From Athripsodes cinereus (Eukaryota > Arthropoda > Insecta > Trichoptera > Leptoceridae): a DNA stretch of 64,000 nt. The notes under the pieces are model-generated. The model had not been told where the DNA came from and made no database searches. It saw nothing but the letters and a program-made list of their open reading frames with translations. This document shows, one piece after another, positions 27,201-63,765 of the stretch. The DNA is taken from the NCBI GenBank assembly GCA_947579605.1, contig OX388309.1, forward strand, positions 17,802,713 through 17,866,712. The letters are read 5' to 3'. A program made the position numbers and the translations under genes. The first letter of the stretch is position 1. Each line of letters begins with the position of its first letter.

Positions 27201-28058
27201 AGCCCCTAAATTGTCCTTTTTGTAAATATTCGATGTCTTGTCGGGGGCTCTTACCGTTGTCTGATAATTTTTATATTTTTAATGCAGGCAATTGATGGCA
27301 AAAGGCAACTAAATACAACTATTCCAAATCAAAATTCGAGAAAAAAAAATTTCGTTCCACCCTAATGGTCATATTCCACTATACTTCATGATTAGTGTAG
27401 TTTAAGTTACCAAACTAATACCAATGTGGTTATATGGCATGGTCATATTCCACTATACTTCATGATTAGTGTAGTTTAAGTTACCAAACTAATACCAATG
27501 TGGTTATATGGCATGGTCATATTCCACTATACTTCATGATTAGTGTAGTTTAAGTTACCAAACTAATACCAATGTTGTTATATGGCATGGTCATATTCCA
27601 CTATACTTCGTGATTAAATACTTTAATATTTTGCTAAAATGAATAAATTGTAAAACAAAATGTTGTATACATTTTGTTTCAGCAGCATTTTGTGATTGAA
27701 AGTCCCAGACCATTATGTAATTTATTTATTTATTTTGCATATGATCTATAAAGGAACTTGAAACAACAATAAACATTTAAAAAATATCACACAAGGTAAT
27801 ACCTAAGAGGGGGGACAACAACTGTCAATTTAGATGCTGTTTTGAAAATTTTAGGTGCTTTTAACCACCCTCCATCCTGGGTAGATCCTTTTGATGAGTA
27901 ACTTTTTTTTTTAATTGATAGGTCCTGTAAATATTAGCAGCAAAGCAAGACTTATCGCCCCCGGCCTGGTGGCCCCTGGAACAGTGTCCATCACCTCTAC
28001 AGAGCTTTACTTTGAAGTAGATGAAGAGGATCCAGAGTTCAGGAAAGTTGATCAAGAG
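117..28058 (+). CDS. Nbea: neurobeachin (rugose/DAKAP550) homologue, central part, 22 exons
   Basis: Neurobeachin is a large cytosolic BEACH-family scaffold that anchors PKA and acts in membrane-protein trafficking at synapses. Twenty-two exons join in frame (5,654 nt, about 1,884 codons), all with AG acceptors and GT donors. Order: alpha-solenoid/DUF4704-like region, long acidic disordered exon, conserved 'RIPEFRW...HQRLL' block, '[13 protein letters not shown]' block, '[24 protein letters not shown]' type block (given here only as family landmark '[18 protein letters not shown]'), His/Asn-rich inserts, '[20 protein letters not shown]' block, DUF1088, and the start of the PH-BEACH domain. 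The gene is cut on the left by the window edge, and the PH remainder, BEACH and WD40 exons are not seen to the right. The family call comes from remembered protein similarity; exon borders come from the sequence. Confidence 0.93.
450..625 (+). repeat. tRNA-derived SINE, copy 1 (family S1)
   Basis: A tRNA-like head carries an A-box-like 'TAGCCTGGAGG' at 461-471 and a canonical B box GGTTCAATCC at 504-513. A unique body ('cacgacacaagcttttagct') follows, then a poly-A run at about 608-625. Three more copies of the same body occur on the minus strand near 23.4, 35.2 and 55.2 kb. It sits in an Nbea intron, in the sense orientation. Confidence 0.85.
884..1110. mobile_element. hAT-type MITE, 227 bp, perfect 8-bp TSD
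   Basis: The left end CAGTGTTCCGCAAA is inverted at the right end as TTTGCGGAACACTG. The element is flanked by a perfect 8-bp direct repeat 'ccttagca' (876-883 and 1111-1118). An 8-bp duplication and CA.TG ends are the hAT signature. It has no coding capacity, and internal repeats of 'ggtgtacc' are visible. It must be mobilised in trans, and its identical duplications suggest a fairly young insertion. Confidence 0.9.
1146..1270 (+). repeat. degenerate tRNA-derived SINE fragment (family S2)
   Basis: The stretch 'tagcctgatggtagaatttt' followed by 'gattggaatcctggtgcc' resembles a decayed A box and B box. A related minus-strand stretch is at 17519-17660. An AT-rich tail ('aataaatatttattttattt') follows. 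The B box is poor, so the class is tentative. Confidence 0.5.
1368..1454 (+). CDS. Nbea: Nbea visible exon 2 (alpha-solenoid)
   Basis: This exon has 29 codons in phase 0 at both ends, between 'tttcag' and AAG|gtactt. It encodes '[18 protein letters not shown]', matching the family pattern 'LLVALMSEHP.SMIPAFD'. It continues the helical repeats of visible exon 1. Confidence 0.92.
1455..2182. other. Nbea intron, no further feature
   Basis: AT-rich intronic DNA with T-rich runs before the next acceptor. I see no repeat, RNA gene or open frame that I can support. Confidence 0.7.
2183..2286 (+). CDS. Nbea: Nbea visible exon 3 (alpha-solenoid)
   Basis: It follows 'ttccag' and ends CAA|gtaggt, splitting a Lys codon with the next exon. 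It encodes '[19 protein letters not shown]' and '[11 protein letters not shown]', the solenoid segment that in vertebrates reads 'G.RVIYKLLASKSE.IRVQALK'. Confidence 0.92.
2598..2690 (+). repeat. LINE-like 3' coding fragment
   Basis: The stretch 'gaggtgttcaaggcaaattt' and what follows reads as '[16 protein letters not shown]', like the 'F+SKLKT.LF' C-terminus of many non-LTR reverse transcriptases. A second, more decayed copy is at 9095-9190. It immediately precedes the Penelope fragment. Confidence 0.5.
2700..3120 (+). mobile_element. Penelope-like element fragment with GIY-YIG endonuclease end
   Basis: Reads '[20 protein letters not shown]' and then, after a frameshift near 2915, '[18 protein letters not shown]'. 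The spacing of GVY, CxxC, YxG, the Arg/Lys-Phe pair, EH and FAxH is that of the C-terminal GIY-YIG endonuclease domain of Penelope retroelements. Upstream '[11 protein letters not shown]' fits the linker of the same proteins. No reverse transcriptase remains, so this is a truncated dead copy. Confidence 0.8.
3366..3556 (+). CDS. Nbea: Nbea visible exon 4 (alpha-solenoid)
   Basis: It lies between 'ttccag' and CCAA|gtatgt. It completes the split Lys codon and encodes '[20 protein letters not shown]' and '[20 protein letters not shown]', matching the neurobeachin segment '.LFSLLAERL...TYNVLFEILIEQIGTQ'. It ends after the first base of an ATG codon. Confidence 0.93.
3665..3981 (+). CDS. Nbea: Nbea visible exon 5 (alpha-solenoid, '[10 protein letters not shown]')
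   Basis: It lies between 'ttgcag' and AAG|gtattc. The reading includes '[20 protein letters not shown]' and '[17 protein letters not shown]', nearly identical to vertebrate neurobeachin. This is one of the clearest identifiers of the family in the window. Confidence 0.96.
4065..6123 (+). CDS. Nbea: Nbea visible exon 6, giant acidic disordered exon
   Basis: This 2,059-nt exon follows 'attgtag' and ends TTTG|gtaatt. After '[20 protein letters not shown]', which closes the solenoid, it encodes about 660 residues rich in Glu, Asp, Ser, Asn and Thr. They are of low complexity and predicted disordered. It corresponds to the poorly conserved linker of neurobeachin/DAKAP550. Two segments match the amphipathic PKA-RII anchoring pattern and are listed separately. 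It ends with a Ser-rich stretch before the conserved RIPEF block. Confidence 0.93.
4722..4757 (+). other. predicted PKA RII-anchoring helix 1
   Basis: [12 protein letters not shown] fits the A-kinase anchoring helix pattern of small/aliphatic residues at positions 1, 4, 5, 8, 9 and 12. DAKAP550, the Drosophila orthologue, is known to bind RII. Binding by this helix is inferred. Confidence 0.6.
5235..5270 (+). other. predicted PKA RII-anchoring helix 2
   Basis: [12 protein letters not shown] fits the same 12-position anchoring pattern, 171 codons after helix 1. The overlapping register [12 protein letters not shown] also fits. Two tethering sites have been described for DAKAP550; that these two are the equivalents is inference. 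Confidence 0.6.
6212..6354 (+). CDS. Nbea: Nbea visible exon 7 (RIPEF block)
   Basis: It lies between 'ttttcag' and CAG|gtaaaa. It encodes '[20 protein letters not shown]' and 'FSLETDIQ', matching 'FRIPEFNWSQMHQRLLTDLL' of vertebrate neurobeachin. It marks the return from the disordered linker to ordered sequence. Confidence 0.95.
6449..6613 (+). CDS. Nbea: Nbea visible exon 8
   Basis: This exon has 55 codons, phase 0 at both ends. It encodes '[20 protein letters not shown]' and '[20 protein letters not shown]', almost co-linear with vertebrate neurobeachin ('MWRSHSTKTVMDFVNSSDN'). It ends AAT|gtaaat. Confidence 0.95.
6817..6996 (+). CDS. Nbea: Nbea visible exon 9
   Basis: This exon has 60 codons, phase 0, between 'tttcag' and CTG|gtgtgt. 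It encodes '[20 protein letters not shown]' and '[17 protein letters not shown]', one of the most conserved blocks of the family. Confidence 0.96.
7215..7386. repeat. fold-back MITE-like palindrome, 172 bp
   Basis: Long imperfect inverted arms. The left arm starts gggcccatagtcaaaacaa, and the right arm, read in reverse, starts gggcccctagttaaaacac. The inner arms are 'aatatagacgacgttacgag' against its complement in 'ctcgcaacgtcgtctatatt'. The spacer is about 30 bp. No target duplication is evident. It could form a long hairpin in the Nbea pre-mRNA. Confidence 0.75.
7387..8742. other. Nbea intron, no further feature
   Basis: AT-rich sequence with T-rich and A-rich runs. No coding similarity, RNA gene or bounded repeat is recognised. 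Confidence 0.6.
8743..8838 (+). CDS. Nbea: Nbea visible exon 10
   Basis: This exon has 32 codons, phase 0. It encodes '[20 protein letters not shown]' and '[12 protein letters not shown]', matching vertebrate '[14 protein letters not shown]'. The length is a multiple of three. Confidence 0.92.
9095..9190 (+). repeat. decayed LINE-like 3' coding fragment, copy 2
   Basis: 'ggaggtattcaaagcaaggt' and its downstream sequence align by eye with 2598-2690 ('ggaggtgttcaaggcaaatt'). It shares the pattern 'cagaaggtgttat...tgaaccctt.aa.tggttt'. Only a short relic is left. Confidence 0.45.
9655..9860 (+). repeat. non-LTR reverse transcriptase C-terminal relic
   Basis: Conceptual reading includes '[20 protein letters not shown]' followed by 'KTVPF', resembling the 'W..LP..IR......F+.KLK..L' ending of jockey/CR1-type proteins. 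It contains stops, so it is non-functional. Confidence 0.5.
9922..10105 (+). repeat. RTE-type retrotransposon 3' fragment, copy 1
   Basis: Reads '[20 protein letters not shown]' and '[20 protein letters not shown]', the same ending as the better copy at 41050-41645. It is degenerate and cut after '[11 protein letters not shown]'. Confidence 0.75.
10464..10568 (+). CDS. Nbea: Nbea visible exon 11
   Basis: This exon has 35 codons, phase 0, between 'ttccag' and GTG|gtaaat. It encodes '[20 protein letters not shown]' and 'AVIYRDV', matching vertebrate 'ISPVRDLDRLLQDMDINRLR'. Confidence 0.95.
10569..11078. other. Nbea intron, no further feature
   Basis: Ordinary AT-rich intron. The open frame running on from exon 11 into it is a read-through without family similarity. 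Confidence 0.7.
11079..11250 (+). CDS. Nbea: Nbea visible exon 12
   Basis: It encodes '[20 protein letters not shown]' and '[13 protein letters not shown]', near-identical to vertebrate neurobeachin, then a Pro/His-rich tail '[13 protein letters not shown]'. It ends after the first base of a Gly/Val codon at CAAG|gtacta. Confidence 0.95.
11251..12031. other. Nbea intron, no further feature
   Basis: AT-rich intron with no repeat or RNA gene that I can support. Confidence 0.65.
12032..12346 (+). CDS. Nbea: Nbea visible exon 13, His/Asn-rich insert
   Basis: This 315-nt exon lies between 'ataacag' and CCAG|gtaatg, in phase with its neighbours. It encodes a low-complexity segment with runs such as '[20 protein letters not shown]' and '[20 protein letters not shown]'. 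I know no vertebrate counterpart. Because the length is a multiple of three and both ends share a phase, it could be skipped without frameshift, so it may be an alternative cassette. Confidence 0.78.
12939..13027 (+). CDS. Nbea: Nbea visible exon 14
   Basis: It lies between 'ttgcag' and AAG|gtttgt and completes the split Gly codon. It encodes '[20 protein letters not shown]' then 'RDQDSPSIK'. An acidic short segment of the variable region. Support comes from phase, splice sites and open frame rather than clear conservation. Confidence 0.75.
13422..13680 (+). repeat. dispersed repeat family B, copy 1
   Basis: Begins with (act)n then 'ataccatcacggcatattcc' and 'acaagtggggtagtcagc', and ends near 'gagtgcttcatgga'. 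The same ordered landmarks recur at 20.1, 42.8 and 55.3 kb (plus) and 43.4 and 54.4 kb (minus). The class is unknown; the end resembles the 3' end of the RTE-type copies here, so it may be a related LINE or its parasite. Confidence 0.75.
14648..14758 (+). CDS. Nbea: Nbea visible exon 15, possible cassette
   Basis: This exon has 37 codons, phase 0 at both ends, between 'tcaccag' and AAG|gttagt. It encodes '[20 protein letters not shown]' and '[17 protein letters not shown]'. It lies in the variable region and could be skipped without frameshift. Confidence 0.75.
14759..15474. other. Nbea intron, microsatellites only
   Basis: Contains short CA-type and TA-type simple repeats (about 14811-14832 and 15182-15200). 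An open stretch at 15205-15419 has no recognised similarity. Confidence 0.6.
15475..15690 (-). repeat. RTE-type retrotransposon 3' fragment, copy 2
   Basis: On the minus strand it reads '[20 protein letters not shown]' and ends 'SAYPTWDTA' with a stop. The tail appears on the plus strand as the 'actatactactata' lead-in. It is an intronic, antisense 5'-truncated copy. Confidence 0.85.
15854..16265 (-). CDS. candidate two-exon antisense mini-gene, piggyBac-end-like
   Basis: Exon A is 16265-16223 (ATG, 14 codons plus one base) with donor CAA|gtaagt. Exon B is 16047-15854 after 'ttatag'. They join in frame into 78 residues ending in TAG. The N-terminus is '[16 protein letters not shown]' and the C-terminus has '[15 protein letters not shown]', like the first CxxC of the Cys-rich tail of piggyBac-type transposases, but the later cysteines are missing. 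A local GC rise lies upstream of the ATG. It could be a transposon relic whose splice frame is chance. Confidence 0.4.
16330..17518. other. Nbea intron, no clear feature
   Basis: AT-rich. A short CCCA run sits near 17060. No gene or bounded repeat is recognised. Confidence 0.6.
17519..17660 (-). repeat. degenerate tRNA-derived SINE (family S2)
   Basis: On the minus strand, 'ggttgctagtctgatggtag' (A-box region) is followed by 'gacctggattcgatttcac' (B-box-like), then a body ending 'cttatgcgatggtgtttgag'. The plus-strand 'aaacccaaacac' end recalls the tail of family S1. Confidence 0.55.
17910..18210. mobile_element. hAT-type MITE, 301 bp, perfect 8-bp TSD
   Basis: The left end CAGCGATGCACAAAC pairs with the right end GTCTGTGCATCCCTG. 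The flanks are a perfect 8-bp direct repeat 'atttaaat' (17902-17909 and 18211-18218). The subterminal 'ccgcgggccgc' is typical of hAT MITEs. No coding capacity. A run of eight or more G lies near 18097. Confidence 0.9.
18652..18874 (+). CDS. Nbea: Nbea visible exon 16
   Basis: It lies between 'ccattag' and GATG|gtaaga. It encodes an acidic stretch with '[20 protein letters not shown]' and '[13 protein letters not shown]'. The 'SWTDVNLNE' motif is also found in other neurobeachins. It ends in phase 1. Confidence 0.88.
18875..19259. other. Nbea intron, no further feature
   Basis: AT-rich intron. Nothing beyond the splice sites is seen. Confidence 0.7.
19260..19595 (+). CDS. Nbea: Nbea visible exon 17, His/Pro insert then conserved block
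   Basis: The first two thirds are His/Pro-rich ('[20 protein letters not shown]'). The last third is highly conserved: '[20 protein letters not shown]' and '[20 protein letters not shown]'. It follows 'tctttag' and ends AAAG|gtattc. The insert is absent from vertebrate proteins as I remember them. Confidence 0.95.
19697..19932 (+). CDS. Nbea: Nbea visible exon 18
   Basis: It lies between 'ttttcag' and GAG|gtttgt. It encodes '[20 protein letters not shown]', '[20 protein letters not shown]' and '[20 protein letters not shown]', nearly identical to vertebrate neurobeachin. Confidence 0.97.
20099..20205 (+). repeat. dispersed repeat family B, copy 2 (short)
   Basis: 'caccatcacggtatatctca' then 'caagtgggatagtcagcaga', and a tail 'ctgtgtgccaacaaatatct'. 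Truncated relative to copy 1, same orientation. Confidence 0.75.
20206..20993. other. Nbea intron with a lone hAT-like left end
   Basis: 'CAGGGGCGGGTAAAC' at 20356 looks like a hAT terminus, but no matching right end was found. Otherwise unremarkable AT-rich DNA. Confidence 0.5.
20994..21169 (+). CDS. Nbea: Nbea visible exon 19 (DUF1088 start)
   Basis: It encodes '[20 protein letters not shown]' and '[20 protein letters not shown]', the beginning of DUF1088 ('EEKMCDHLISAAKHRD', 'LTNKHGAWG' in vertebrates). It ends CAAAA|gtaagt, splitting a Lys codon. Confidence 0.95.
21170..21595. other. Nbea intron, no further feature
   Basis: AT-rich. Nothing recognised before the family C repeat. Confidence 0.65.
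21596..21770 (+). repeat. dispersed repeat family C, copy 1
   Basis: Contains 'ctcccatatctggatatgtc', 'attcgctcttctaagtaaaa' and 'gaggggctggccggccaata'. The same landmarks appear in reverse order and complement at 52678-52840, inside the Harbinger-like element. Class unknown. Confidence 0.7.
21790..22531. other. Nbea intron, no further feature
   Basis: AT-rich intron with A/T runs. No bounded element seen. Confidence 0.6.
22532..22676 (+). CDS. Nbea: Nbea visible exon 20 (DUF1088 end)
   Basis: It lies between 'tattag' and CAG|gtattt. It encodes '[20 protein letters not shown]' and '[12 protein letters not shown]', matching 'DFWRLDYWEDDLRRRRRFVR' of vertebrates. Confidence 0.96.
23010..23133 (+). 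CDS. Nbea: Nbea visible exon 21
   Basis: It lies between 'atgtag' and ACAG|gtatgt. It encodes '[20 protein letters not shown]' and '[17 protein letters not shown]', the acidic linker between DUF1088 and the PH-BEACH domain. Confidence 0.9.
23441..23602 (-). repeat. tRNA-derived SINE, copy 2 (family S1)
   Basis: Minus-strand copy of the 450-625 SINE. It has 'gtagcctggaggtagagtct' (A-box region), a degenerate B box 'ggttcgatacc' and the 'cacgacacaagcttttagta' body. Confidence 0.85.
23900..24076 (-). repeat. RTE-type retrotransposon 3' fragment, copy 3
   Basis: On the plus strand, 'aacgccgtatcccaggtggg' then 'gtaggcagagagaagggaac' is the complement of the '...SAYPTWDTA' ending of the other copies. 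It is cut after about 180 bp. Confidence 0.8.
24447..24651. repeat. 74-bp tandem array, left half (units 1-3)
   Basis: Near-identical 74-bp units starting 'gattagtgtagtttaagtta' begin at 24447, 24521 and 24595. Unit 3 is broken at 24651 by the transposon insertion and resumes at 27365. Units differ by single bases, such as 'atgtggtt' against 'atgttgtt'. Confidence 0.95.
24652..27364 (-). mobile_element. DNA transposon, 2,713 bp, internally deleted, 8-bp TSD
   Basis: Terminal inverted repeats start TAGGGTGGAAC and continue imperfectly (T/A run, then 'tcgaat', 'ggaata', 'gttgcc'). The 8-bp target duplication 'atggtcat' (24644-24651, 27365-27372) is confirmed by the empty-site sequence in the uninterrupted 74-bp units. 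The TSD length and TAGGG ends suggest a hAT-like class, but the coding relic belongs to a widespread unnamed arthropod TE-protein family and I cannot fix the superfamily. Confidence 0.92.
25057..26898 (-). pseudogene. decayed transposase-like gene inside the transposon
   Basis: From ATG at 26898 the minus strand reads '[20 protein letters not shown]', then with stops and frameshifts '[19 protein letters not shown]', '[17 protein letters not shown]', '[19 protein letters not shown]', '[20 protein letters not shown]', '[16 protein letters not shown]' and finally '[20 protein letters not shown]'. These landmarks and their order fit a multicopy arthropod protein family I recognise only as TE-derived. 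'GCNGT' replaces the usual 'GCDGT', and about 150-200 residues between 'ANEL' and 'AIVDPV' appear deleted. Not functional. Confidence 0.8.
27365..27611. repeat. 74-bp tandem array, right half (units 3-6)
   Basis: The remainder of unit 3 (27365-27389) is followed by full units at 27390, 27464 and 27538. The array ends at 27611 with a partial 'gatta'. Removing the transposon and one TSD copy restores six head-to-tail units. Confidence 0.95.
27922..28058 (+). CDS. Nbea: Nbea visible exon 22 (PH-BEACH start)
   Basis: It follows 'attgatag' and ends GAG|gtaaga. It encodes '[20 protein letters not shown]' and '[19 protein letters not shown]', matching vertebrate 'AQLIAPVVVAKGTLSITTTE' and 'IYFEVDEDD'. 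This is the first beta-hairpin of the PH domain that packs on BEACH. The next exon should encode 'YTEGLHGKW...' type sequence but was not found. Confidence 0.96.
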
Positions 28059-29332
28059 GTAAGAGTTTTTATCTTAATATTTTTAAATTTGTTGATGATA
28101 TCTATTTGTATTAAATATTATTTTTATATTTGTAATGGATTTTATTTTACTTATTGTTTTTATGATATAGAGTTTTATGTGCTCCATAAATATCCTTGTT
28201 TCTTTTTGGATTAATTTTGTAAGTGGCTAATTGCCATATAATGTTACATAAATAAATAAACATTTAGGCAGTTCTTTGTTTACTTTCTGTTGACAACTGT
28301 CACAACTACAAATCATCGTAGTACAAACTGGCTCATGAACGACTTTTGAATTTGATTATTTTCCGGCCGTCAGGACATTGGCCTTAGGAATGTAATCCAT
28401 AACTACTACTAAAAATTTCTCCCCCCTCCCTCGGTATAGGAATTATACTGACTATTGATTATGTCAATACCAATTATTGTTGCATATTGCATACAGAGTA
28501 TCGGTACATTTTTGTTAATGTGAATGAATTTCTACCATTCAATCTTGCCCCCTGTCACCGGAATTCTCAAGACGGGGGCATAGGAATTTTAAATATTTCA
28601 CGAACTCCTCGGTTTTGTTATAGAATATTTACCCACAACCATAAATTATCGGGTATTTTTTATCGATAACCGACCAACAAATATATACCCATTATTCCAA
28701 ACATTTATTAAGCAGCTTATCTATCTCAAAGGATTTATTAAGTTTGTGGGCATGCCCTGCCCACCGTGCCCACAACGGATTTGCCTTTGTAGTAGATGCT
28801 CTTGTTGAAAAGTCTAACTATTTTTACAAAGAAGACGACACCTCCATTCACCCACATTGAGACACCCAATACCCTATTATCATTGTGTTTCTCTAGCAAC
28901 ATGGAACGCCAGATCTATTATTAATAAAGGGATGGAGGAACTTGATGTAAACACATTTTTTCTGGGAGTACCTGAAGATAGACGTGCACAATATGGCGCT
29001 CTTCAGGCCATGTTATGAGAAAACAGCTATAGAAAGATAAAAGAAAGCATTGCATAGCTATAGCGGGGTAGAATCAATAAAATTTGATGATTTATTTATT
29101 GAATTGGCCTTTATTTAGTAAAACTCCATGTTTATGTATGGAAGAATACTCAATTGGTTTTAGTTTTACTTAATATTGAATTGAAAAGTACCTGGTTTTG
29201 ACTTGTAAAGTCATCGTCAAACTAATCTTTGTTAATCTTAGCAATGTATTGTAATACTTGTGACCATTTACAAAAACACATTATGTTTTTACTCACTGAA
29301 GAGATTGTGAGTATTATGAGTAATTTATTATA
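28059..29332. other. start of long intron, no clear feature
   Basis: AT-rich. A short C-rich patch sits near 28420. I see no further neurobeachin exon, RNA gene or bounded element. Confidence 0.55.
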
Positions 29333-32690: not shown

Positions 32691-33062
32691 TACTACTATA
32701 CTATACCCTCACGCCATGTCCCAGGAGGGGTAGGCAGAGAGAACGGAACGCCATATAGATCTATCCTTGCATACTTCTTTCGCTTCCTCTACATTCATCC
32801 AGTTTCTCATACATGCACGCCGATTTCTCTTACTCAGCACGCGTCCGTCCTTAAGAATTTGGTCCACGTGATCAAGCCACGTGGTTCTTGGACGTCCGCG
32901 CTTCCTCACACCCCTTCTTTCAGATAAATACATCCTCTTCGTCATCCTTTCATCTTGCATTCGCTCAACATGTCCAAACCATCTCAACTTGTTTACACGC
33001 ATTCTGTCCACAACACTCCTCTCACATCCGCTCATGAATATATTCCCAACCATAGTTCTTTA
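32691..33062 (-). repeat. RTE-type retrotransposon 3' fragment, copy 5
   Basis: An open minus-strand frame (32709-33053) reads 'RVNKLRWFGHVERMQDERMT', '[20 protein letters not shown]' and '[14 protein letters not shown]' with a stop. It is the C-terminal part of an RTE-type reverse transcriptase polyprotein, 5'-truncated but uninterrupted, so relatively young. Confidence 0.88.
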
Positions 33063-38697: not shown

Positions 38698-41049
38698 TAC
38701 CTAATGTTATCTATCCATATACAAACCGTTCTCTACATATATTGCTTAACTTCTTTGATAGGGCGAAAACCGATGCATTCAGCTACATACGATCATAGCC
38801 TTGATTATTTCTTTCTATACGATTCGCGATGTAAAAAAATTTATACTCACAAGTCACAATAGATCATTTATGTATAACGTGTCTTAGGTATGATCATTGC
38901 ATATATATTACTATTATGAGCGAGACAGAAATATAACAGATAAATTGCCCGTTGCACTAATGCGCTAACCAATAATGTTACACATATTATTGTTAATGTT
39001 ACACATAACATACAATGACTTTATCGCCAGGATAGAGATTCTCCTCTGATTGTCACTTTTTGATGATATCTTTTATTTTCTTGACTTGGCATTTCTTTGT
39101 TTTTTGTTTTTTTGTTTTTTCATTTTTCCTGCTGAGACCGCCTTGGCCAAAAGTTATTATTGTCTCAGTGCAGGGTGATGTTTTATAATAATAATAATTT
39201 ATTACTGATAAAGAGACGATTCTTACAGGGATCATTACAGCGGAATATATGTAACATAATGCTTAGCGCATTAGTGCATCGGACGAACCGGGGAAACGGA
39301 AGCGCGCAATAATACTTTTGCTTAAAAAAACTGAGGTAAAGCCCGATTTTTGGGCTCGTATGTAAGACACGTCACTGTATCATACTTATATACACACAGA
39401 TAGGTAGGTAGTATATGTGTACTAGAACGACTTACTAATACACCACACTTCTACTAGCTGGTGATTTTAGTTGATTATTTATGTTCCTATATGTAACTTT
39501 AAATAGATCTTTCAGCAATAATTGGCATGTTTAAAAATAGTGTAAAGATGATTTGCAAATCTCCTAATATAACGATGCTGCTGCAAATCATGTAATGACT
39601 TACTCGTCATTTTATGATGTTGTTTTCTCTTTATGCAGACATTTTATTGCGTTCAAATGGAATAACAACCTCTATAGCCATAGTACATGTTACGAGAACT
39701 CATGGATATACGTGGTTTATGTAATTTGTATTCATATCGGGTTTAAGTATTATTCCTAAAGTGATTTACGACATGATAGTTTCGGTGGACTATTCCACAT
39801 AAGTATAATAATATGTAGGTAACTATGAGTGACATTTATATCAAGCACTGATGTCATCTGATGGTATTAGGAAAGCATAAGGACTAAGGATCTCACGAAT
39901 GTACGTGTTGTGTGTCTCCATAGGTGTGTTAACAGAAAGACATGTTAAATGAAACATTCTGCGGACAGGCTGATGTTGGGGCCCCACGCCGTGCGGCGCG
40001 CCCACCGCTCCTGGGGTGATGCCGTACATTTATCATTACATACATCTCCTCGATAAACATACCATCCTGATATTATATTTAATATTCAATAAAAACAATA
40101 CATTATGTCTCATGTAAACCATTTGTGGAATGTATCATATTATAATAATAGTGATTAACGGTATGTAGATAGATAGGATATTTTATTCTTATTATTTACT
40201 GCTCCCATCCTACCATCTCATCTATATTTATAACTCGACTATAATACGAGGTAGGTACATCTACATACCTACCTACAGAATTCCAAATCAATTTCATATC
40301 TACATAGTAATACATATCTGCAAGAGTTACGTCACCATCATGCATATCCGATTATAAATATTTTTTATTAGATGAAAACTGGTAGTCAGGTATTTTGTTT
40401 CAGACTTTTCTTTGGAAAACAACAAATGACCGACACAAACTTTAAGTTTATTAAATAACAAAGTATAATATGGCGTTCTATCTTCTCTGCCTACCCTATT
40501 AGGAACACACCACGAGGGCATGGATAGACAAAAAAATATCTTCCATATGTTATAACTGTGTTTATTTTGTTTATATTTTCGGCAACAACTATATAATAAT
40601 TTATAGAAATATTGATATTGTTTTAGAGTAGGTACCTACCTAACTAACTACATAAATATTATATTACTAGACTGGTATGTAGAAATAGTTAAAGAGTGTT
40701 GTATTTTGGAAGTTTGTTAAGTACAATGAATGTGCGTGTGTGTGTGTGGCCACGTGACTAGCTGGTGGTATTTTAGCGCCGCAGCCTGCGGCCTCCGCCC
40801 AGTTCGGCCCCTCGTTACCGCACTAATATATCACGCTACCTTCATTATTGGAAACACAAATTACGTAAACAATTTGATATTTTCACAGTTTTGTCAAATC
40901 TTATTATGTCGTTAGCAGCATCACAATATTTATGAGAATATCTTAGTATATATTATATATTATCAAGTCACATAAATTTGGAATTTCGTTAAGATTTTTT
41001 CTCAGTGCAATTAATTCATTCCTCTTTTTGAAGTATTTAACCCACTGTA
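38698..41049. other. long intron with a GC-rich island
   Basis: A GC-rich patch at 39973-40028 and another at 40774-40818 stand out from AT-rich surroundings. A (tg)n run sits near 40730. No gene is supported. Confidence 0.5.
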
Positions 41050-41645
41050 AGGAGAAAAGTTGCTGGCAATAAGGTAAATGGTGCAATCCGACCAATAATT
41101 GCAAATAGAAACATATCCACCACAGCTAAAAGGTTGGTGCACTCTGCTATCTTAGTGCCAACACTTATGTATGCAAGTGAGACGTGGACATGGTTAAAGA
41201 AGGATGTAAGTGGCATAAATGCAGTTGAAATGAGATCACTGAGAAGGATGTGTGGTAAAAGTCTGAGAGATCGTGTGCGTAACAGTGAGATACGAAAGGA
41301 ATGTGGAATGAAAGTTAGTGTAATAACAAGGATGAATGTAAATAAGTTAAGATTGTTTGGGCACGTGGAAAGAATGAATGAGGACAGAATGACTAAGAAG
41401 ATATATTTGTCTGAGAGGAATGGTGCTCGGAGACGTGGACGTCCGAGGATTAAATGGCAAGATCATTTAAATCAAATCCTACAGGACGGTCACGTGTTGA
41501 GTACGTTGAACAGGAGAGCATGCATGAGGAATTGTATGACAGTGACGGAAGCGAAAGATGTGTGCAAGGATAGAAGGAAGTGGCGCTCGATCCTTTCTGC
41601 CTACCCCGCGAGGGAAGCGGCGTGATGTTATGTATGTATGTATAA
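41050..41645 (+). mobile_element. RTE-type retrotransposon 3' part, copy 6 (best preserved)
   Basis: Open for about 190 codons: 'VAGNKVNGAIRPIIANRNIS', 'HSAILVPTLMYASETWTWLK', 'VNKLRLFGHVERMNEDRMTK', 'NGARRRGRPRIKWQDHLNQI' and the end 'SAYPAREAA' with stop. This is the C-terminus of an RTE-type reverse transcriptase. The tail is (tatg)n at about 41625-41642, typical of RTE insertion by short tandem 3' repeats. Confidence 0.88.
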
Positions 41646-43987: not shown

Positions 43988-46900
43988 ATTGTATATTATA
44001 TATTGTATATTGTATATCATCAGCCGTAGGCCCAGTCCGGGCACTTGGATTCGTCAAAAGCATTACAATTTTTGATTAAAAAATATAAAAAGATATAAAA
44101 AAGAATATAAAAATGATATAAAAAAGAAACAGACATTCAGTAAATTTATAGGTCATTGCAAATCGGAGTGTAAATGGCTCAGATTTGCAAATCGTCAGAC
44201 ATAGGCAGACAACAAGAGACAACAAAGAATTACAGATTTACAAAATATTTAAATACTAATAGAGTCATTTGCTCGATTCAGCATTTCGTCAATAGTGTAA
44301 AAGGATTGCTCAACGAGATACTCCTTCACCCTCCCACGAAACGCCTCCAAGCCCAAGGCCCTCACATCTTCAGGCAGCTTGTTAAACAACCGCACACTGA
44401 GGCACACAAAGCTTTTGCTGACCTTTGCCAACCTATGCTCGATTGCACGAACATCATTTTTATGTCTAGTGTCATAGGCGTGCTGATCCGAATTTAGGGG
44501 AGTGTTTGGCAAGTTTTTCCGGGCAAAAGTCATGCACTCTATGATATATGCACCGGCCAAGGTCAATACACCCAGCTCTCGAAAGGAGTTTCGACAACTG
44601 TCTCCCGGCTTCAGCCCCATTAATACTCGTATGGCCCTTTTTTGTAAGAGAAATATTCTTCTTGCTTCACCTACCCCGCCCCAGAACAGCACCCCATATG
44701 ACATGATGCTGTGAAAGTAGGCATGGTATATGGACTTTGCCGCCTCAAAACCGCAGGTCTCTTTAATTTTTTTAATTGCGAAAATTGCGGAATTTAATTT
44801 CCCGGCCAGCTCCTCAATGTGCGCCGTCCACCGCAATCTCCTGTCAATCTTAACTCCTAAGAATTTACAATTGTCAACTATAGCTAGTTGGCGCTCAGAT
44901 AGAGCCGCCGTGACTGGGTCGGGCGCAGAGGACTGTCTCAGTGAGAAGTGAATAGTATTCGTTTTCGTCACATTCAGGACAAGATCATTTTCCCTGAACC
45001 ACTCGCCCACTCTGTCCAGGACACTTAAGGTGTTGCGAATCGTTTTCTCTTTTTCAATACCATCCTGGATCAATATCGAGGTATCGTCTGCGAACATAAC
45101 TATTTTTTGACCTTCCTCGATACAGCCTGGTAGGTCGTTCACATAAATTAAAAAGAGCAAGGGCCCCAGTATCGAACCTTGGGGAACGCCGCAGACTATC
45201 GCTCTCTCAGTCGACCTGACACCGTTTACCTCTGTGATCTGTCTACGGTCATCCAAATACGATCTGAGAAATTGATTCTCAGTGCCCCTCACTCCGTATA
45301 GAGTGAGCTTTTCTAGTAGAATTTTATGGTTCACACAATCAAATGCCTTTGACAGATCACAGAAGACTCCATATGTATCGCGCTTCTGATCCAGAGATTC
45401 AAGAACTGTCTGGAGTAGGGACGAAATCCCGTCGACCGTACTTTTTCCCTTTTGGAAACCAAATTGGAGTGAATTTAGGGTATTATTGTGAACAAAAAAG
45501 TGGGCGAGCTGTGCAGTGACCATTCTCTCAAGAAGCTTACTAATCACCGGCAGGATCGAGATGGGTCTGTAGTTTCCGGGGTCAGTTGGGTCACCCTTTT
45601 TATGTATAGGGACAACCCTAGCCATTTTTAAGAGATCCGGAAAAATCCCCTGCTCAAGGCTCAAATTGAACAATTTTGCTAGACATGGTGCAAGGCAATG
45701 AATAATGGATTTAAGTAATTTAGTTGATATATTCCAGAGGTCTGTGGATCCTTTTGATTTTAAATTTTTACAGGTATTTAATACGTCCTGTGTGGATATT
45801 GGCCTAAACTTGAAAGTAGTCTCTACAGAATCTATACACTTATATTTATTGGTTACAACCGAGGAAGGGCCTGATGCCTGAATCAGGGATGATGCTGCAC
45901 TTACAAAATATTCGTTAAAGTAATTTGATATGGCCAGTTTATCGGAACCATCTATGCCGCCTACAGTGATGAGATCCGCCTCATGAGAGTGCTCAATGGA
46001 TCTACCCGTTTCCTCTTTAATAACATTCCATGTTGCTCTAATTGGATTTTTTGATAGCATTATTTTGCGGCTAAGAAATCTTTTTTTTGCCTCTTTACAC
46101 ACTGCTTTGAATATGGCACTGTATCTACGTACTAAATTTGTAATTTCTTCAGAATTTTTCAATCTTTTTTGCTCGTACAATTGGAACAAATTTCTCCTTG
46201 ATATCCGTATACCAGGAGTAGCCCAACATTCAAAAGATTTCTTAGTCATACACTTTGTTTTCTTTACAGGAAAATTATGATTCAATTCCAAAAGGATTAA
46301 TTTGAACAATTCACTAAAAACCAAATTTACATTTTTGTTGTCGACTGCCAAAGAGCAAACAGTATGGGCAACAGATTGTTGGAAATTATTTATGCTTTCC
46401 TCGGTACAAATTCTCCTGGAAATACATTTTTTTACAACTGGTTTACATTTAATATTCTCAATTTTAAATTCAATCATTTGCCCATAATGGTCTGATCTGA
46501 TTATATCAACAAGGTGAGAATTAATCAAGTTTACATCTGTAAAAACATTGTCAATGCAAGTGGCTGTACTATTTGTTACTCTAGTAGGTGCAAGAATGCT
46601 ACGCGTCAAACAGAAACTACTCATAATATCCACAAAATTGTTCTTGTTGTTTGTGTCAGTGTCTAGATCTATATTGAAATCACCACATACAATTAGGCGC
46701 TTATTATTATTTAAACTTAAAATATTCAGGGCATTTTCCAGTGTACTGAGGAATGAGTCAACGTTTCCAGATGGTGCTCTGTACACTGAGACAACTACAA
46801 TATTATTCATTTCAACACAACTGATCTCACAGTGCTTTTCTAATGACAGTTTCACAATGTCTACCCTGTTTTTTGCTCGCCATTTATTATTTACAAATAT

Positions 46901-47113
46901 AAGAGATCCCCCTCTTGTTGTTTTTTCTCTACTAAAGTTACTAATGATACTAAAGTTAGATATATTGTGACACACGACCTCAGACTCGCACAACCATGAC
47001 TCAGTGATGCACAACACATCCAACCCATCCAATACCGGCGAAGTGTTCAACTCGTGGAGTTTGCCACGCAGGCCCTGGACGTTCTGATGTGCGACTGTGA
47101 AGGTACTGCCATG
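43988..47113 (-). mobile_element. non-LTR retrotransposon with near-intact ORF2 (jockey/CR1 group)
   Basis: Minus-strand element. The 3' end carries a 'tatacaa'-type short repeat tail (about 43988-44020), a 230-bp 3' UTR and one long open frame. Only ORF2 is present, with no ORF1 upstream, so it is 5'-truncated or an internal part is lost. The CR1/L2 or jockey clade is not resolved by eye. Confidence 0.88.
44249..47113 (-). CDS. ORF2: APE endonuclease plus reverse transcriptase
   Basis: 955 codons free of stops, bounded upstream by TAA at 47114-47116 and with no N-terminal ATG. The frame opens with 'AHQNVQGLRGKL' (APE endonuclease motif), then 'ITESWL', 'CGDFNID' and 'RSDHYG' (catalytic Glu, Asp and His). 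The RT domain has 'YRPISILPVISKLLER', 'FCDLSKAFDCVNHK', 'GVPQGSILGPLLF' and the catalytic 'FADD'. A codon at 47050 that can look like a start is TTG (Leu). All key residues are intact. Confidence 0.9.
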   Translation of the reverse strand, partial: HGSTFTVAHQNVQGLRGKLHELNTSPVLDGLDVLCITESWLCESEVVCHNISNFSIISNFSREKTTRGGSLIFVNNKWRAKNRVDIVKLSLEKHCEISCVEMNNIVVVSVYRAPSGNVDSFLSTLENALNILSLNNNKRLIVCGDFNIDLDTDTNNKNNFVDIMSSFCLTRSILAPTRVTNSTATCIDNVFTDVNLINSHLVDIIRSDHYGQMIEFKIENIKCKPVVKKCISRRICTEESINNFQQSVAHTVCSLAVDNKNVNLVFSELFKLILLELNHNFPVKKTKCMTKKSFECWATPGIRISRRNLFQLYEQKRLKNSEEITNLVRRYSAIFKAVCKEAKKRFLSRKIMLSKNPIRATWNVIKEETGRSIEHSHEADLITVGGIDGSDKLAISNYFNEYFVSAASSLIQASGPSSVVTNKYKCIDSVETTFKFRPISTQDVLNTCKNLKSKGSTDLWNISTKLLKSIIHCLAPCLAKLFNLSLEQGIFPDLLKMARVVPIHKKGDPTDPGNYRPISILPVISKLLERMVTAQLAHFFVHNNTLNSLQFGFQKGKSTVDGISSLLQTVLESLDQKRDTYGVFCDLSKAFDCVNHKILLEKLTLYGVRGTENQFLRSYLDDRRQITEVNGVRSTERAIVCGVPQGSILGPLLFLIYVNDLPGCIEEGQKIVMFADDTSILIQDGIEKEKTIRNTLSVLDRVGEWFRENDLVLNVTKTNTIHFSLRQSSAPDPVTAALSERQLAIVDNCKFLGVKIDRRLRWTAHIEELAGKLNSAIFAIKKIKETCGFEAAKSIYHAYFHSIMSYGVLFWGGVGEARRIFLLQKRAIRVLMGLKPGDSCRNSFRELGVLTLAGAYIIECMTFARKNLPNTPLNSDQHAYDTRHKNDVRAIEHRLAKVSKSFVCLSVRLFNKLPEDVRALGLEAFRGRVKEYLVEQSFYTIDEMLNRANDSISI

Positions 47114-55560: not shown

Positions 55561-58420
55561 AAGGCATAACTAGAAAATTTATAAAATCTTGTTCTTTGGC
55601 TTATTACATGTAAAAAGTTATATTCTTTCAATTCCTCAAATAAAACATTGTAAAATTTGAATAATCATTCCGTTCCTCAGTTCTGAGGGAACATAAGAGA
55701 ACAAAATTTGAAAATACCTTCCCAGTACCGCAGTAGCTATATATTTTTATATTTGATATTCCATTTTCTTTCTGGAAACTTAAAAATTAACAATAGATGT
55801 CGACCAGTGTAATTTGATGACCGAATATTGTCCATTCTTGTTCTCTGTGTGATTGCATTTATCATATTACCTACATTATATTTGACTATTGTCTCATAAC
55901 ATTACTTCAATGCATTGAATTCCGGTATTTAATAAAAAATCTCTCATACCTACTTAACAGTATTTCTTTCGAAATGTTAAGTGTGTCCAGGAAATCAGTG
56001 CCCTCGCACCGGGGACTTACATAATTTTGTACGGCAATTACGATTTAGTATTAGTGTTTACCATCATCCCGACGGAATGCCAGTATAATGTGTAGTTTAT
56101 TCGTCTGCGTTTTATTTTATTAGTAATTTCATGTAATAAGTATCATATTACTTGGTGATTATCGGAGGATCTAAATGTTGTTGTTTTATTTTAACAATGT
56201 ACCTACATAGTAAGTAAGTAGCTCGGTGGTCCTATAAGATCAGTAGTATGTTGTTAGTTACTTCTTATGAGACATTATCTTCATGTCGCTTCACTGTCTT
56301 ACTCTCGATAGCTATTCACGTAGTGTAGTACAGCAAATTAACTGATGTAAGTAGCTATATGGAAAACTATTGCTTCTTTATACAAATGTCGTCCCTTCAT
56401 AGTAGGTATATTCTTTTATATGTATGTAATAAAATCTCTCTTAACTCAGTCGTTTCGTAGCCATTCTTTAAATATTGGACATTCCTTTTTTTGATCAAGT
56501 AAATTAGTTATTAAAGTTTTCGTGTCCTATAGGTATAATAAAATTGCTACAAATATAAAAGTCGGTTTGTAAGATTCGTATATTAAGATTAGACTATCAA
56601 TCATCCCTGTCTTGAAAATATATTAAACGAATTTATTAAATGAATGTTGTTATAGAAATGTACTGCAAACCCACGGTCCAACAGTTTATAAAAAATAATT
56701 GAACAAGAGTGCGATATTAAATGTAGTCGATAAAAGAATTACAATGCTAGCTGAACCACCCACTCACTAAGAAATATTGGAAGTGAATAATAATTTGGAT
56801 ATTTGAAAGCGTAAAACACAAAAAAATAATCATTTTCTGTATAGGGCAGAAGACCATTCAAACCTAACAAGGTCTCCCCGACATTGACAATCTCCCTAGT
56901 GAAAACTTCGCAAACCTGTGTCTTTCGAAACAACTCCTCCGCTTCTATTATCTCGGCTCAGTGTTCTATGTTGCACATTTACGACATTTTGTTTCCTGCC
57001 GACCCCACTGTTATCCGCCACGTACCTTACCGTTTCGTTTATTAATAAATTCAATATTAAATATCTTACGATAGTTTAAGGCTTCCTACATCTATAGAGA
57101 ATGTGAAATCGTAATGAGTTGTAATAAATTATTGTTAGTAGTGTAATAGGTACGTACGTACGTACGTATCACTCCCGAGGGAAAGGGATCCGTAGCTCAA
57201 TCCATCAAATCCCATTAATTGTGTGCAAATGAGCTGCAGCGAGCGTTTTGACTTGTCTTAATTTATATCGTTAGCAGCTGTCCGTCATTCAATTAATTAA
57301 TATTACAAACTCTGTATTATTTTAATAAAACATCGTTGTTGATTGGTGAGGTGGGTGATACAAGGAAGGAACATTGATACATATATTATCATAATATCGT
57401 ATTGTTATAAACAAGTCTATGTCTAACTAACTAGCAACTGTCGCCAACTTACTACTACTTCTACCTACCAGGTGGGATACAGGAAATACTCCTTTTCAAA
57501 TTTAAATGTACTGACATGCCTTTTGTTTATATTATTTAGTATCCACGTGAGGGTTTGTGTGTTTAATGTATGTATCTTTTATTTTTTTTTATTTAGGCCT
57601 AATATATTTAAAAAAAAATTATATTAATCATTCATCGTCTTTTGTTTCATATGATCTCTATTTAAAACTTTGAAATGGTAGTGGAATATTCTGACACATC
57701 AGTAATTGAATTATTCACCGATTTTTTTTATGATATTGTGTATTTTAACGATGAACTCTTATTATCGCAATTCACTGTATTCAATAAAATTATTTAGAAG
57801 TTAATAAATATAACATAAAGAATTGCAATAATTTAACACTTTATTGAGAAAAAAAAATTGTACAGATATACATTTTGCCTTGGGACAATGTCTTCCGGCA
57901 AATCTAATATTATGTTTGATATAAGTACATGTTTCAACATCATGTGAAGTTAGATAGGACATATATAAAATAGAAATGAAAATAAAACAGGAGTAGGTAT
58001 GTTAAATTACAATTAATAGAATAATGTAACCATTTACAACTATTAACGTATATGTGTACCTTATATATAGATATACATATTTACATTATCTAAATGGTTA
58101 CTGGTTACTATATAAAGATGTTCTCGGTTTTTTATTAGGGGTTAGGAAGTTGGTGGAGTGATTAAATATTATTTCATTTGGGAAGTTTTTGGCATCTACG
58201 GTAGGAGATGATGATTAAAACGATGTATTTTGAGATGGAAATACTAGGAGACAATTATACGTTGGCATATAAACCTAAATAAAATGTGAATATATTATTG
58301 CGAAACCAAAAACATATACTACGCCTCATCTATTTTTAACAGCACTGTTTTGATTTTGTGTTCCAGAAATAAAATTTAAATTAATAATTTTTAAAATGAA
58401 ACACAATATATAGTTATTCC
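55561..58420. other. long intron, no clear feature
   Basis: AT-rich; an (acgt)n run sits near 57150-57166. No gene or bounded repeat is recognised. Confidence 0.55.
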
Positions 58421-58433
58421 ACTATTGACTTTA

Positions 58434-58491
58434 TTTATTTTTACGAGCCGGCTTTCAAGAGCTTCCGCTCACATCGTCAGGCAAAACTTTA
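58434..58491 (-). ncRNA. type I hammerhead ribozyme, minus strand
   Basis: On the minus strand CTGACGA lies at 58480-58474, stem II GAGC-GGAA-GCTC, GAAA at 58456-58453, stem III GCCGGC and the cleavage triplet CTC. Stem I pairs 'ttttgc' with 'gtaaaa', including one G-U wobble. It is slightly less regular than the plus-strand copy (a T-T mismatch in stem II). Confidence 0.78.
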
Positions 58492-58545
58492 CTTTTGCCT
58501 GACGATGAGAGCGGAAGCTCTTGAAAGCCGGCTCGCAAAAATAAA
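58488..58545 (+). ncRNA. type I hammerhead ribozyme, plus strand
   Basis: The core CTGACGA is at 58499-58505. Stem II is AGAGC-GGAA-GCTCT (58508-58521) with a flanking G-T pair and one unpaired T. GAAA is at 58523-58526. Stem III is a minimal GC/GC pair set around a CG loop (58527-58532). The cleavage triplet is CTC, with the cut after 58534. Stem I joins 'tttacttttgc' (58488-58498) to 'gcaaaaataaa' (58535-58545) with ten pairs and one mismatch. All invariant core bases are present. The very short stem III is the known style of Penelope-associated hammerheads. Confidence 0.88.
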
Positions 58546-58558
58546 TAAAGTCAATAGT

Positions 58559-60589
58559 AAAATTTAAATGTTCGTTGGTCTTATTAATAAAAGGGATGTA
58601 TTCTTAGCCTGAGTATAAATAGTATTTTACATAGATATTTACCTATGTAATAGGTATTTGATATTATATGAATTATTGTTTTATATTGATCGTTATGTTA
58701 ATAATCCCTCGAATAGTTGAGAGTCATAGATAGGTAGAGACATGGCATGGCATGGCACACAGCATACACGAGGTAAGGTGAGGTGAACCCACCTACAAAC
58801 ATATTACATAAATAAGTATCCTCACTTGTTTTAATATGTATTTTAAAAATGGTTTAAAAAGATGTATCCTTTTTGTATAAATATTTACACAAGAGTAGAT
58901 TATTCGTCTTGATTTGTAATAAATAATAATTTATCAAAGTCAAAAGCCATAGGAATATTGAATAAATCTTTTATCAATTACATCGCGTCTAGGGGGACGT
59001 GTATAATAGTCTGAAATTATCATATATCTATTTTAATCTAATAAATCAATCACAATTCTCAACTCGGGGCTATTCATTTTTTTTATATTATTTTATACGT
59101 TGGTGTGGTGTACCGTATGCGTTTATACGTTTTACTCACCAAGACTTACTATAAAATAATAGTCTTCTTTAAACTGCTTCTATAGATAAGATAATATCCA
59201 ATAGAATCTTGGTACATTGTAGTAATATCCAGTGTAATCTTGGTATATTGTAGGCATTTTACATTTAATTGATGCTTAAATAAATTCTTATTAAACGTTT
59301 AAATAAATAAATTGTTGATTAATATATTTTCTAAACGCGCAGCTATCTATCTATTAAATCATATAATGTGAGTTTTACTTTTATCTACTTTGTATTTTGT
59401 TCTCGTTGGAGACAAGATTTTTTTATTGTTTGCATCCTTGTTTTGTTTACGATTCTAATTAAAATATTAATAATTTGTTCCTCTATTTTGTTTATATTTT
59501 AATTCAATAACAATTTGCTGTAGGCGTATGCATATAAATAATTATAATATTTCTCACATTTGATTGTTCATGCTTATTGTCTAGTTTTGAAGCGATTAGT
59601 AAGAGGGGCATCGTTACAATACCAAATAAATAATTAATTGGTGAAAATTAATATTTAAATATCATTATGTTTTCTTGTCGGCCATAAAAAACTGCTTATT
59701 ATTGTTTCACTAATGTGATTGTATTAACAAATCCAGTTGTACACCAACAATGGTGTTATGAACTTGTTAAGAAGTCATGAAAGAAGTATTGGCTAAGCTA
59801 TACCAACTCCACAACCGCAATATCGTTTTAATAAAAGAAATGTACTTATGTTAGTAACCAATTTTACCATTTGTAATAAAACTACCTTACCTACAATAAA
59901 AATACCTGCATTAGCTTATACCTACGGTCAGTTAGTTCAAATGCAAAAAATAATACAATAATGTCATACAACTCGTTATTATTGACAACCTGTTGGCAGA
60001 AATAAAAAATGTTTAGAAATTATTATTGAATGTAATTCTCATTATCACATTTTGCATTTTATTTCAAAACATTTCATTTTAGGACATTTTAAAGCATGTT
60101 ATGGAACTCATGGATGTAAGTGGCTTACGACCGGAAAGGTAGAAGCATGTACAAGTATATCACCTCCTTAGTGACAAAAGTTCTTACAAGTTTATTTGTT
60201 GCAAACATGCATTTTGCCGTATAAAAGCATTTCAAGACTAAAGCAATGCTTATTACTGTATTGTAATTATTAATAGTTGACTACTCATGACAGTGCATTA
60301 TCGTCCATCCCACTAATAATGTACGGATTATTGACATAGATGCCATACAAAAGATCCTGTTGACTTCTTGCGACATGTTGAAAGGTTTTAAATAATTGAT
60401 AGCGAGACATTATAAATTAACATTTATCACAGCGGGTTGTCTTAGTTTCAACATAAAATCATGAGTATTTTAGAAACTTTGTAATTATTCATTACCATAT
60501 TATCAAATTTGCTATCTTGTCTCAACTCTTTATGTAGATCCGACGAATTCTTTAGAAAAAGATTGAGCATTGAGATTACCATGTTTATG
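58559..60589. other. long intron, no clear feature
   Basis: AT-rich. A short (atggc)n run sits near 58742. I see no retroelement coding sequence next to the ribozyme palindrome. Confidence 0.55.
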
Positions 60590-63433: not shown

Positions 63434-63765
63434 GTGCAGGTTTGTAATTAAGTCGATTAACTAAGTACCTATGGTGGTTTGGACATGTTGAGCGAATGCA
63501 AGATGAAAGAATGACGAAGAGGATGTATTTGTCTGAAAGAGGAGGTGTGAGGAAGCGCGGACGGCCAAGAACCACGTGGCTTGAGCACGTGGATCAAATC
63601 CTTAAGGACGGCCGCGTGTTGAGTAAGAGAAATCGGCGATCATGTATGAGAAACTGGATGAATGTGGAGGAAGCGAAAGAAGTTTGTAAGGATAGATCTA
63701 TATGGCGTTCCATTCTCTCTGCCTACCCCTCCTGGGACACGGCGTGAGGGTATAGATAGATAGGA
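63434..63765 (+). repeat. RTE-type retrotransposon 3' fragment, copy 8
   Basis: Open frame reading 'ERMQDERMTKRMYLSERGGV', '[20 protein letters not shown]' and the end 'SAYPSWDTA' with stop, then a 'ggtatagatagatag' tail. Very similar to copy 5 in opposite orientation, so the two are probably the same young subfamily. Confidence 0.87.

Follow-up and report, generated by a model that had tools for sequence, protein, structure and literature searches.

A head-to-head palindrome carrying a hammerhead-like motif and start codon, a possible relic of a Penelope-like element 5' end

Available sequences of Penelope-like elements (PLEs) show hammerhead motifs (PMC6155905, in part; sources available to us in part are so marked throughout), and these motifs usually have no letters for helix III (PMC7761336 and PMC6155905, both in part). 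The mode of PLE insertion is poorly known (PMC11167929). In the Anolis PLE (PAc) the ORF starts where stem II of the hammerhead starts, C3 and G8 precede the start codon, and the cut lies 26 bp downstream of that codon (PMC11167929). Both target strands are cut and extended, with AT-rich targets preferred, and reverse transcription begins inside the ORF start, commonly 111–118 bp in; the minimal template requires the first 172 nt (PMC11167929). The PAc ribozyme cleaves only with the PLE protein present and is dispensable for insertion in vitro (PMC11167929).

The PLEs of Adineta vaga often carry inverted pLTRs with palindromes at their junctions, mostly head to head, which have been read as products of self-priming; such priming has been argued to need, probably, an antisense template (PMC3846280, in part). 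Target-site duplications (TSDs) of 8–10 bp are found in some copies and not in others, and the outer end of the element comprises 12 codons, or 22 including a 31-bp 'tail' (PMC3846280, in part). A further type I motif, HHR_Amex1 of the axolotl, has a one-pair stem III with a palindromic tetraloop and is weak as a monomer and better as a dimer (PMC7229834, in part). PLE and other type I motifs with such a stem III are also reported to work better as a dimer (PMC7761336, in part).

We examined an inverted repeat of 138 bp at 58421–58558 of a 64-kb stretch of DNA, the whole of which is called the window here. As the original prediction had it, the palindrome is nearly perfect: two 66-nt arms (58421–58486 and 58493–58558) with mismatches in two of 66 columns surround a six-nucleotide centre, CTTTAC. 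The features of the locus are as follows.

58370–58381, plus strand: left copy of the 12-bp direct repeat TAAAATTTAAAT, a candidate TSD
58382–58420, no strand: AT-rich 39 nt from the left repeat to the palindrome, for which the direct repeat does not account
58421–58486, minus strand: left arm, which repeats the right arm in inverted and slightly decayed form and bears a degraded minus-strand hammerhead
58487–58492, no strand: centre CTTTAC, in which 58488–58491 are able to lengthen the plus-strand stem I (with 58542–58545) beyond one C.A mismatch
58493–58558, plus strand: right arm, whose hammerhead is the better one and whose frame is open
58493–58498, plus strand: 5' strand of stem I, UUUUGC, pairing with 58535–58540 (descriptor and fold)
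58499–58505, plus strand: hammerhead core CUGACGA, C3 to A9 (letter pattern and descriptor)
58505–58567, plus strand: short open frame MRAEALESRLAKINKVNSKI and its stop codon, with the AUG at 58505–58507, residues 1–18 in the palindrome and the stop in flanking DNA
58506, plus strand: the extra base, a U left unpaired after A9 and before stem II, which doubles as the middle letter of the AUG (descriptor)
58507–58522, plus strand: stem II of 6 bp, 58507–58512 with 58517–58522, loop GGAA (descriptor and fold)
58523–58526, plus strand: hammerhead GAAA (letter pattern and descriptor)
58527–58532, plus strand: GCCGGC, a one-pair stem III with a palindromic CCGG loop (sequence and descriptor)
58533–58534, plus strand: U16.1 and C17, with cleavage predicted between 58534 and 58535 from the hammerhead consensus
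58535–58545, plus strand: 3' strand of stem I, six pairs, one C.A mismatch and four more pairs (descriptor, fold and sequence)
58558–58569, plus strand: right copy of the 12-bp direct repeat, beginning at the last base of the palindrome

The right arm contains all the hammerhead parts that had been named for it, including the extra U at 58506. Stem I adjoins the core, and stem II reaches the core only with this one extra U. In the plus-strand hammerhead of Chrysanthemum chlorotic mottle viroid an extra nucleotide sits next to A9. That natural hammerhead, like the right arm, has one extra core nucleotide; however, it is an A in a viroid, whereas here it is a U in genomic DNA (PMC3705267, in part). 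Matches with mispairs at positions 10.1–11.1 were set aside in another study (PMC3088659, in part).

The letters CUGANGA...GAAA are present in both arms, and the complete order including UH is found by descriptor in the plus copy. The bare pattern CTGANGA...GAAA is uninformative, with 5 matches against 3.07 expected. The descriptor consisted of CTGANGA, 0–1 extra base, a stem II of at least 4 pairs, GAAA, a short stem III, UH and a stem I of at least 4 pairs. On the two strands of the window it finds the right arm as the only site when one extra base is allowed, and no site without it. Chance matches on both strands numbered 4 in 356 Mb of window-like Markov sequence and 11 in 3,552 Mb of uniform sequence, figures that somewhat favour the site, as the descriptor was composed after the site was known. 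Among these chance matches (3.9 Gb simulated in all) none has both stems of 6 pairs; those lacking the extra base (1 of 4 in window-like and 8 of 11 in uniform sequence) have a cleaner core and one stem shorter. The right-arm motif is well beyond chance.

When the right arm is folded by itself, its minimum-energy structure contains both stem I and stem II. In this fold C3-U4-G5 pair with stem III letters, and opening the core costs 3.8 kcal/mol (-10.4 versus -14.2). Of the four distal stem I pairs, three are predicted when a piece that begins at 58489 is folded. The GCCGGC at 58527–58532 is self-complementary, which makes a 6-bp stem III possible in a dimer.

Hammerheads had been proposed for both strands. 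The core letters do stand intact in both arms, but the complete motif does not: stem II of the minus copy has an internal U.U and a basal G.U, this copy fails the descriptor, and its stem I is missing from the minimum-energy fold of the left arm alone. The AUG of the left arm is followed directly by UGA, so the frame is lost there. Occurrence of the motif on both strands is an automatic result of the palindrome and not a second independent event. The sequence suggests that the right arm with the centre is the parental piece, because CTTTAC prolongs stem I for the plus copy only.

At the gathering threshold no Rfam model matches anywhere in the window. At E<=10, a 401-nt piece gives 12 matches, none of them a hammerhead, and each arm alone gives none; Rfam may be blind to a PLE hammerhead that has an extra base. 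Covariance scores below threshold had been named beforehand as grounds against the prediction, and such scores are what Rfam returned for both window and arms. The locus is best called hammerhead-like and not a filed Rfam member, because no curated hammerhead covariance model matches it.

As RNA, the plus strand from 58410 to 58570 forms one hairpin of -110.7 kcal/mol, against a mean of -29.1 for shuffled sequences (z -24). Such stability is what a selected hairpin would show, for example a small-RNA precursor or an editing target with fossil hammerhead letters, and miRNA-type Rfam models do align here, far below their cut-offs. We consider this reading very improbable: the Rfam scores mirror those of generic hairpins, and two mismatches in 66 columns suit a young insertion as well.

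The start codon is formed by A9, the extra U and G10.1, and the predicted cut after 58534 lies 27 nt past the AUG, compared with 26 nt in PAc. This arrangement suggests that the start codon explains the U beside A9. With PAc the right arm has in common a type I core, an AUG at stem II, C3 and G8 ahead of the AUG and an AT-rich insertion site, and, as in that element, the hammerhead stands at the pLTR/ORF start (PMC11167929). PAc as described has stems I and II only, whereas the palindrome adds the one-pair stem III with its CCGG loop, that is, six letters where PLE hammerheads usually have none for helix III (PMC7761336 and PMC6155905, both in part). Reverse transcription of PAc starts mostly at 111–118 and its minimal template takes in 172 nt, whereas the palindrome reaches 54 nt into the frame and no ORF body follows.

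The head-to-head arrangement, too, has a PLE counterpart. In Adineta vaga, Penelope copies likewise have inverted head-to-head ends with a junction palindrome, with the ORF start outermost (PMC3846280, in part); here both outer ends lie at codon 18. Some Adineta copies have a short TSD, for which the 12-bp direct repeat is a candidate here (PMC3846280, in part). The dimensions differ. The Adineta copies described retain pLTRs of roughly 180–218 bp and mostly ORF sequence as well, with solo pLTRs also mentioned, whereas each arm here has 66 nt; the palindromes given there are of 18 and 38 bp, and the present one is of 138 bp (PMC3846280, in part). The AUG at A9/extra U/G10.1, the cut 27 nt on and the head-to-head palindrome together support the tie to the PLE type I hammerheads, whose stem III is minimal, and do so in more specific terms than the original prediction, which first made it.

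The axolotl motif offers a different comparison: the palindrome could derive from the unit of a metazoan retrozyme or of a hammerhead satellite, after a template switch during replication or reverse transcription had inverted it. HHR_Amex1 resembles the right arm in its one-pair stem III and palindromic tetraloop, and retrozyme-like repeats are reported in insects (PMC7229834, in part). However, retrozyme units are tandem repeats of 150–450 bp; those of amphibians (HHR_Amex1) are tandem units of about 330–350 nt in very many copies, and the text examined contains no overlap with an AUG (PMC7229834, in part). Here the unit is 66 nt, no tandem copies of it are present in the window, and the AUG at stem II has been described for a PLE (PMC11167929). 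We regard a retrozyme origin as rather unlikely, and the idea of a 'minimal inverted non-autonomous retrozyme' finds neither a tandem unit nor any further copy in the window. Among the earlier readings, a 'solo terminal structure' fits best.

The frame MRAEALESRLAKINKVNS is open to the edge of the palindrome, which it reaches at 54 nt, codon 18. These 18 residues begin with MR, like most long proteins of the best-matching PLE group: MR opens 18 of the 21 proteins of at least 850 aa in the group found with the first bait, 4 of 37 proteins of 700–849 aa, and 3 of 37 in the second group. In the proteins of at least 850 aa that start with MR the following residues vary; the shared MR may, among other causes, stem from a constraint on the RNA at the start codon. 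Beyond MR, the 18 residues show no significant match to PLE N-termini: in nine rows selected for motif spacing, P is 0.11 with random peptides and 0.03 with shuffled ones as the null. The FF of the best-matching PLE group is not among the 18 residues, and when 240 proteins were compared over their first ~150 residues, 24 of the 25 best ungapped windows were internal. A bait composed of the 18 residues and a PLE consensus recovered one PLE among 694 candidates, with 81% of the bait covered and an N-terminus unlike that of the bait. For comparison at the DNA level, no PLE was confirmed in viral contigs, and genome contigs yielded one locus, a MAG record with a PLE fragment (L001), which does not match the hammerhead patterns used.

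The palindrome does not qualify as a PLE: a protein body is lacking, and no ORF with a telomerase-like reverse transcriptase and a GIY-YIG endonuclease is present there. A search of the window with 241 PLE proteins (tblastn, E<=0.01) gave no match within 56–61 kb. The same search placed 80 of the 241 at 2653–2928, with a best E of 6e-8, and gave one weak match (E 0.006) at 41053–41205. The first of these regions is one further feature.

2653–3001, plus strand: broken PLE piece from the GIY-YIG endonuclease region, in which one match runs on in another frame

This piece is about 55 kb upstream of the palindrome. Its best matches are insect-type PLE proteins, and the named members of the best-matching group, among 120 listed, are from ants, wasps and a sawfly. 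Judging from the endonuclease sequence at 2653–2928, PLEs have therefore once been in the host genome, which lends a PLE source modest support of an independent kind.

Both the broken PLE piece and the palindrome share the window with a host gene. Pfam identifies neurobeachin on the plus strand from DUF4704 (3649–4032) and DUF1088 (19690–19992), with PH_BEACH at 27915–28211 below the Pfam cut-off. Downstream, a first set of patterns for BEACH exon motifs gave no match and a second set only scattered, chance-like ones. The palindrome is likely in a neurobeachin intron.

Other repeats occur in the window. A nearly identical 74-bp tandem unit stands at 24448–24651 and 27365–27616, at both ends of a segment of about 3 kb that holds minus-strand ORFs (25057–26373), one of which has a sub-threshold Pfam match only; our impression is of a DNA transposon with subterminal repeats. 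On the minus strand, 44252–47113 encodes 954 aa in one open frame with the domains of an endonuclease and a reverse transcriptase; this non-LTR retrotransposon ORF is long and apparently intact. A tail motif (..CKDR..WRSxLSAYP..) is common to 15493–15720 (minus), 32709–33059 (minus), 41041–41625 (plus) and 63448–63747 (plus), and these four pieces resemble the 3' terminus of a non-LTR element that is repeated.

The inner arms of the palindrome (58444–58535) have a GC content of 54%, against 26–27% in the flanking kilobase on each side, whereas the outer parts are AT-rich and the ends read ACTA...TAGT. A near-perfect palindrome, of the size of a MITE and with AT-rich outer parts and ends that would permit a TA duplication, could be a fold-back MITE of a cut-and-paste transposon, its hammerhead being either incidental or borrowed as a fragment. 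This is unlikely in our view, given a hammerhead well beyond chance, the lack of a second copy of the palindrome in 64 kb, and a longest flanking direct repeat that does not abut both edges of the palindrome.

That repeat is the 12-bp TAAAATTTAAAT, whose right copy touches the palindrome edge; a direct repeat doing so has a P of about 0.0007–0.005 under four nulls, two of which were anchored at the edge post hoc. The weak point in reading it as a TSD is the left copy, which is 39 nt outside the palindrome.

Searches elsewhere gave little. The 26-nt core of the arm has no exact match in viral contigs or in genome contigs (0 and 0). Distant blastn gave partial, weak matches only in 69 phage records, of which 20 were listed, and in 13 plasmid records, with E of 0.1 to 7 among the matches listed for the two sets together, and a scan for sigma-70 promoters and terminators gave numbers close to those of shuffled sequence (3 versus 2.2 and 0 versus 0.2, respectively). 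Six strings from the arm (five of 17–19 letters and one of 16) do not match literature text. No head-to-head palindromic hammerhead insertion of this kind was found in the literature searched, the scope of which lay outside the primary PLE-hammerhead papers.

We lean, with little more than even confidence, towards a relic insertion from the 5' end of a PLE, comprising hammerhead and start codon, in two copies head to head. The PLE origin, the priming scheme and the TSD are all inferred. Weighing against this reading are the absence of an Rfam hammerhead match, the pairing of core letters in the fold of the lone arm, the lack of significant PLE similarity beyond MR in the 18 residues, an edge well short of the PAc start region, the antisense template argued for self-priming, the six helix III letters, the 39 nt beside the left repeat, and the finding of no PLE protein match within 56–61 kb and no second copy in the window. 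A PLE enzyme would have nicked AT-rich DNA, and reverse transcription would have started within the opening codons of the element's RNA, near codon 18, which is now the palindrome edge. Copying would then have run back through the start codon and the hammerhead, and about 66 nt in its direction would have reversed, because the cDNA primed itself or because the two target strands were both extended from one start site. With a turn-round after a shared start, both arms would end at the same codon. The behaviour proposed is a variant of a known PLE habit, and the locus is probably a relic.

Inversion may also have come about without any retroelement step, if the host duplicated an earlier solo PLE or hammerhead fragment by a DNA template switch at a replication fork. 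Snap-back template-switch events are known and, with arms that differ in only two of 66 letters, count in favour of such an origin. We think it improbable: the arms end at one common point, the right end coincides with a candidate 12-bp duplication, and head-to-head junctions are a reported habit of PLEs (PMC3846280, in part).

Alternatively, the palindrome may belong to a family that is itself mobile, its 138-bp 'double-headed' element consisting of nothing but two PLE hammerhead/ORF-start modules. PLE protein would mobilise it in trans, because the module carries the start site of reverse transcription. This we hold to be quite unlikely.

Self-cleaved ends from either strand were also part of the original prediction. 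These are unlikely, as the hairpin is favoured by about 67 kcal/mol and the minus copy is damaged: in the full transcript, enforcing stems I and II raises the energy from -110.7 to -44.1 kcal/mol. Among 11 growing 5' fragments, of which 7 have the length for stem II and 4 that for the whole of stem I, none shows a stem I or stem II pair in its minimum-energy fold. On this folding result, which is thermodynamic and not kinetic, we reject cleavage from either strand. The locus transcript contains only one sense copy, and for this reason an intramolecular dimer is impossible. As modelled, the hairpin probably outcompetes the ribozyme in cis, and little or no cis-cleavage is expected because the hairpin is far more stable and no intramolecular dimer can form. 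At most, the locus could plausibly supply double-stranded RNA; as a ribozyme locus it is probably inert.

Hammerheads of the PLE type may escape models that forbid an extra base next to A9. If a double-headed mobile family were real, it would be a very small parasite of PLEs with ribozymes readable from either strand. If the palindrome is instead the head-to-head product of a PLE insertion with 66 nt in each arm, it would capture reverse transcription that began inside the ORF start and reversed almost at once, and would bear on the priming step of these elements.
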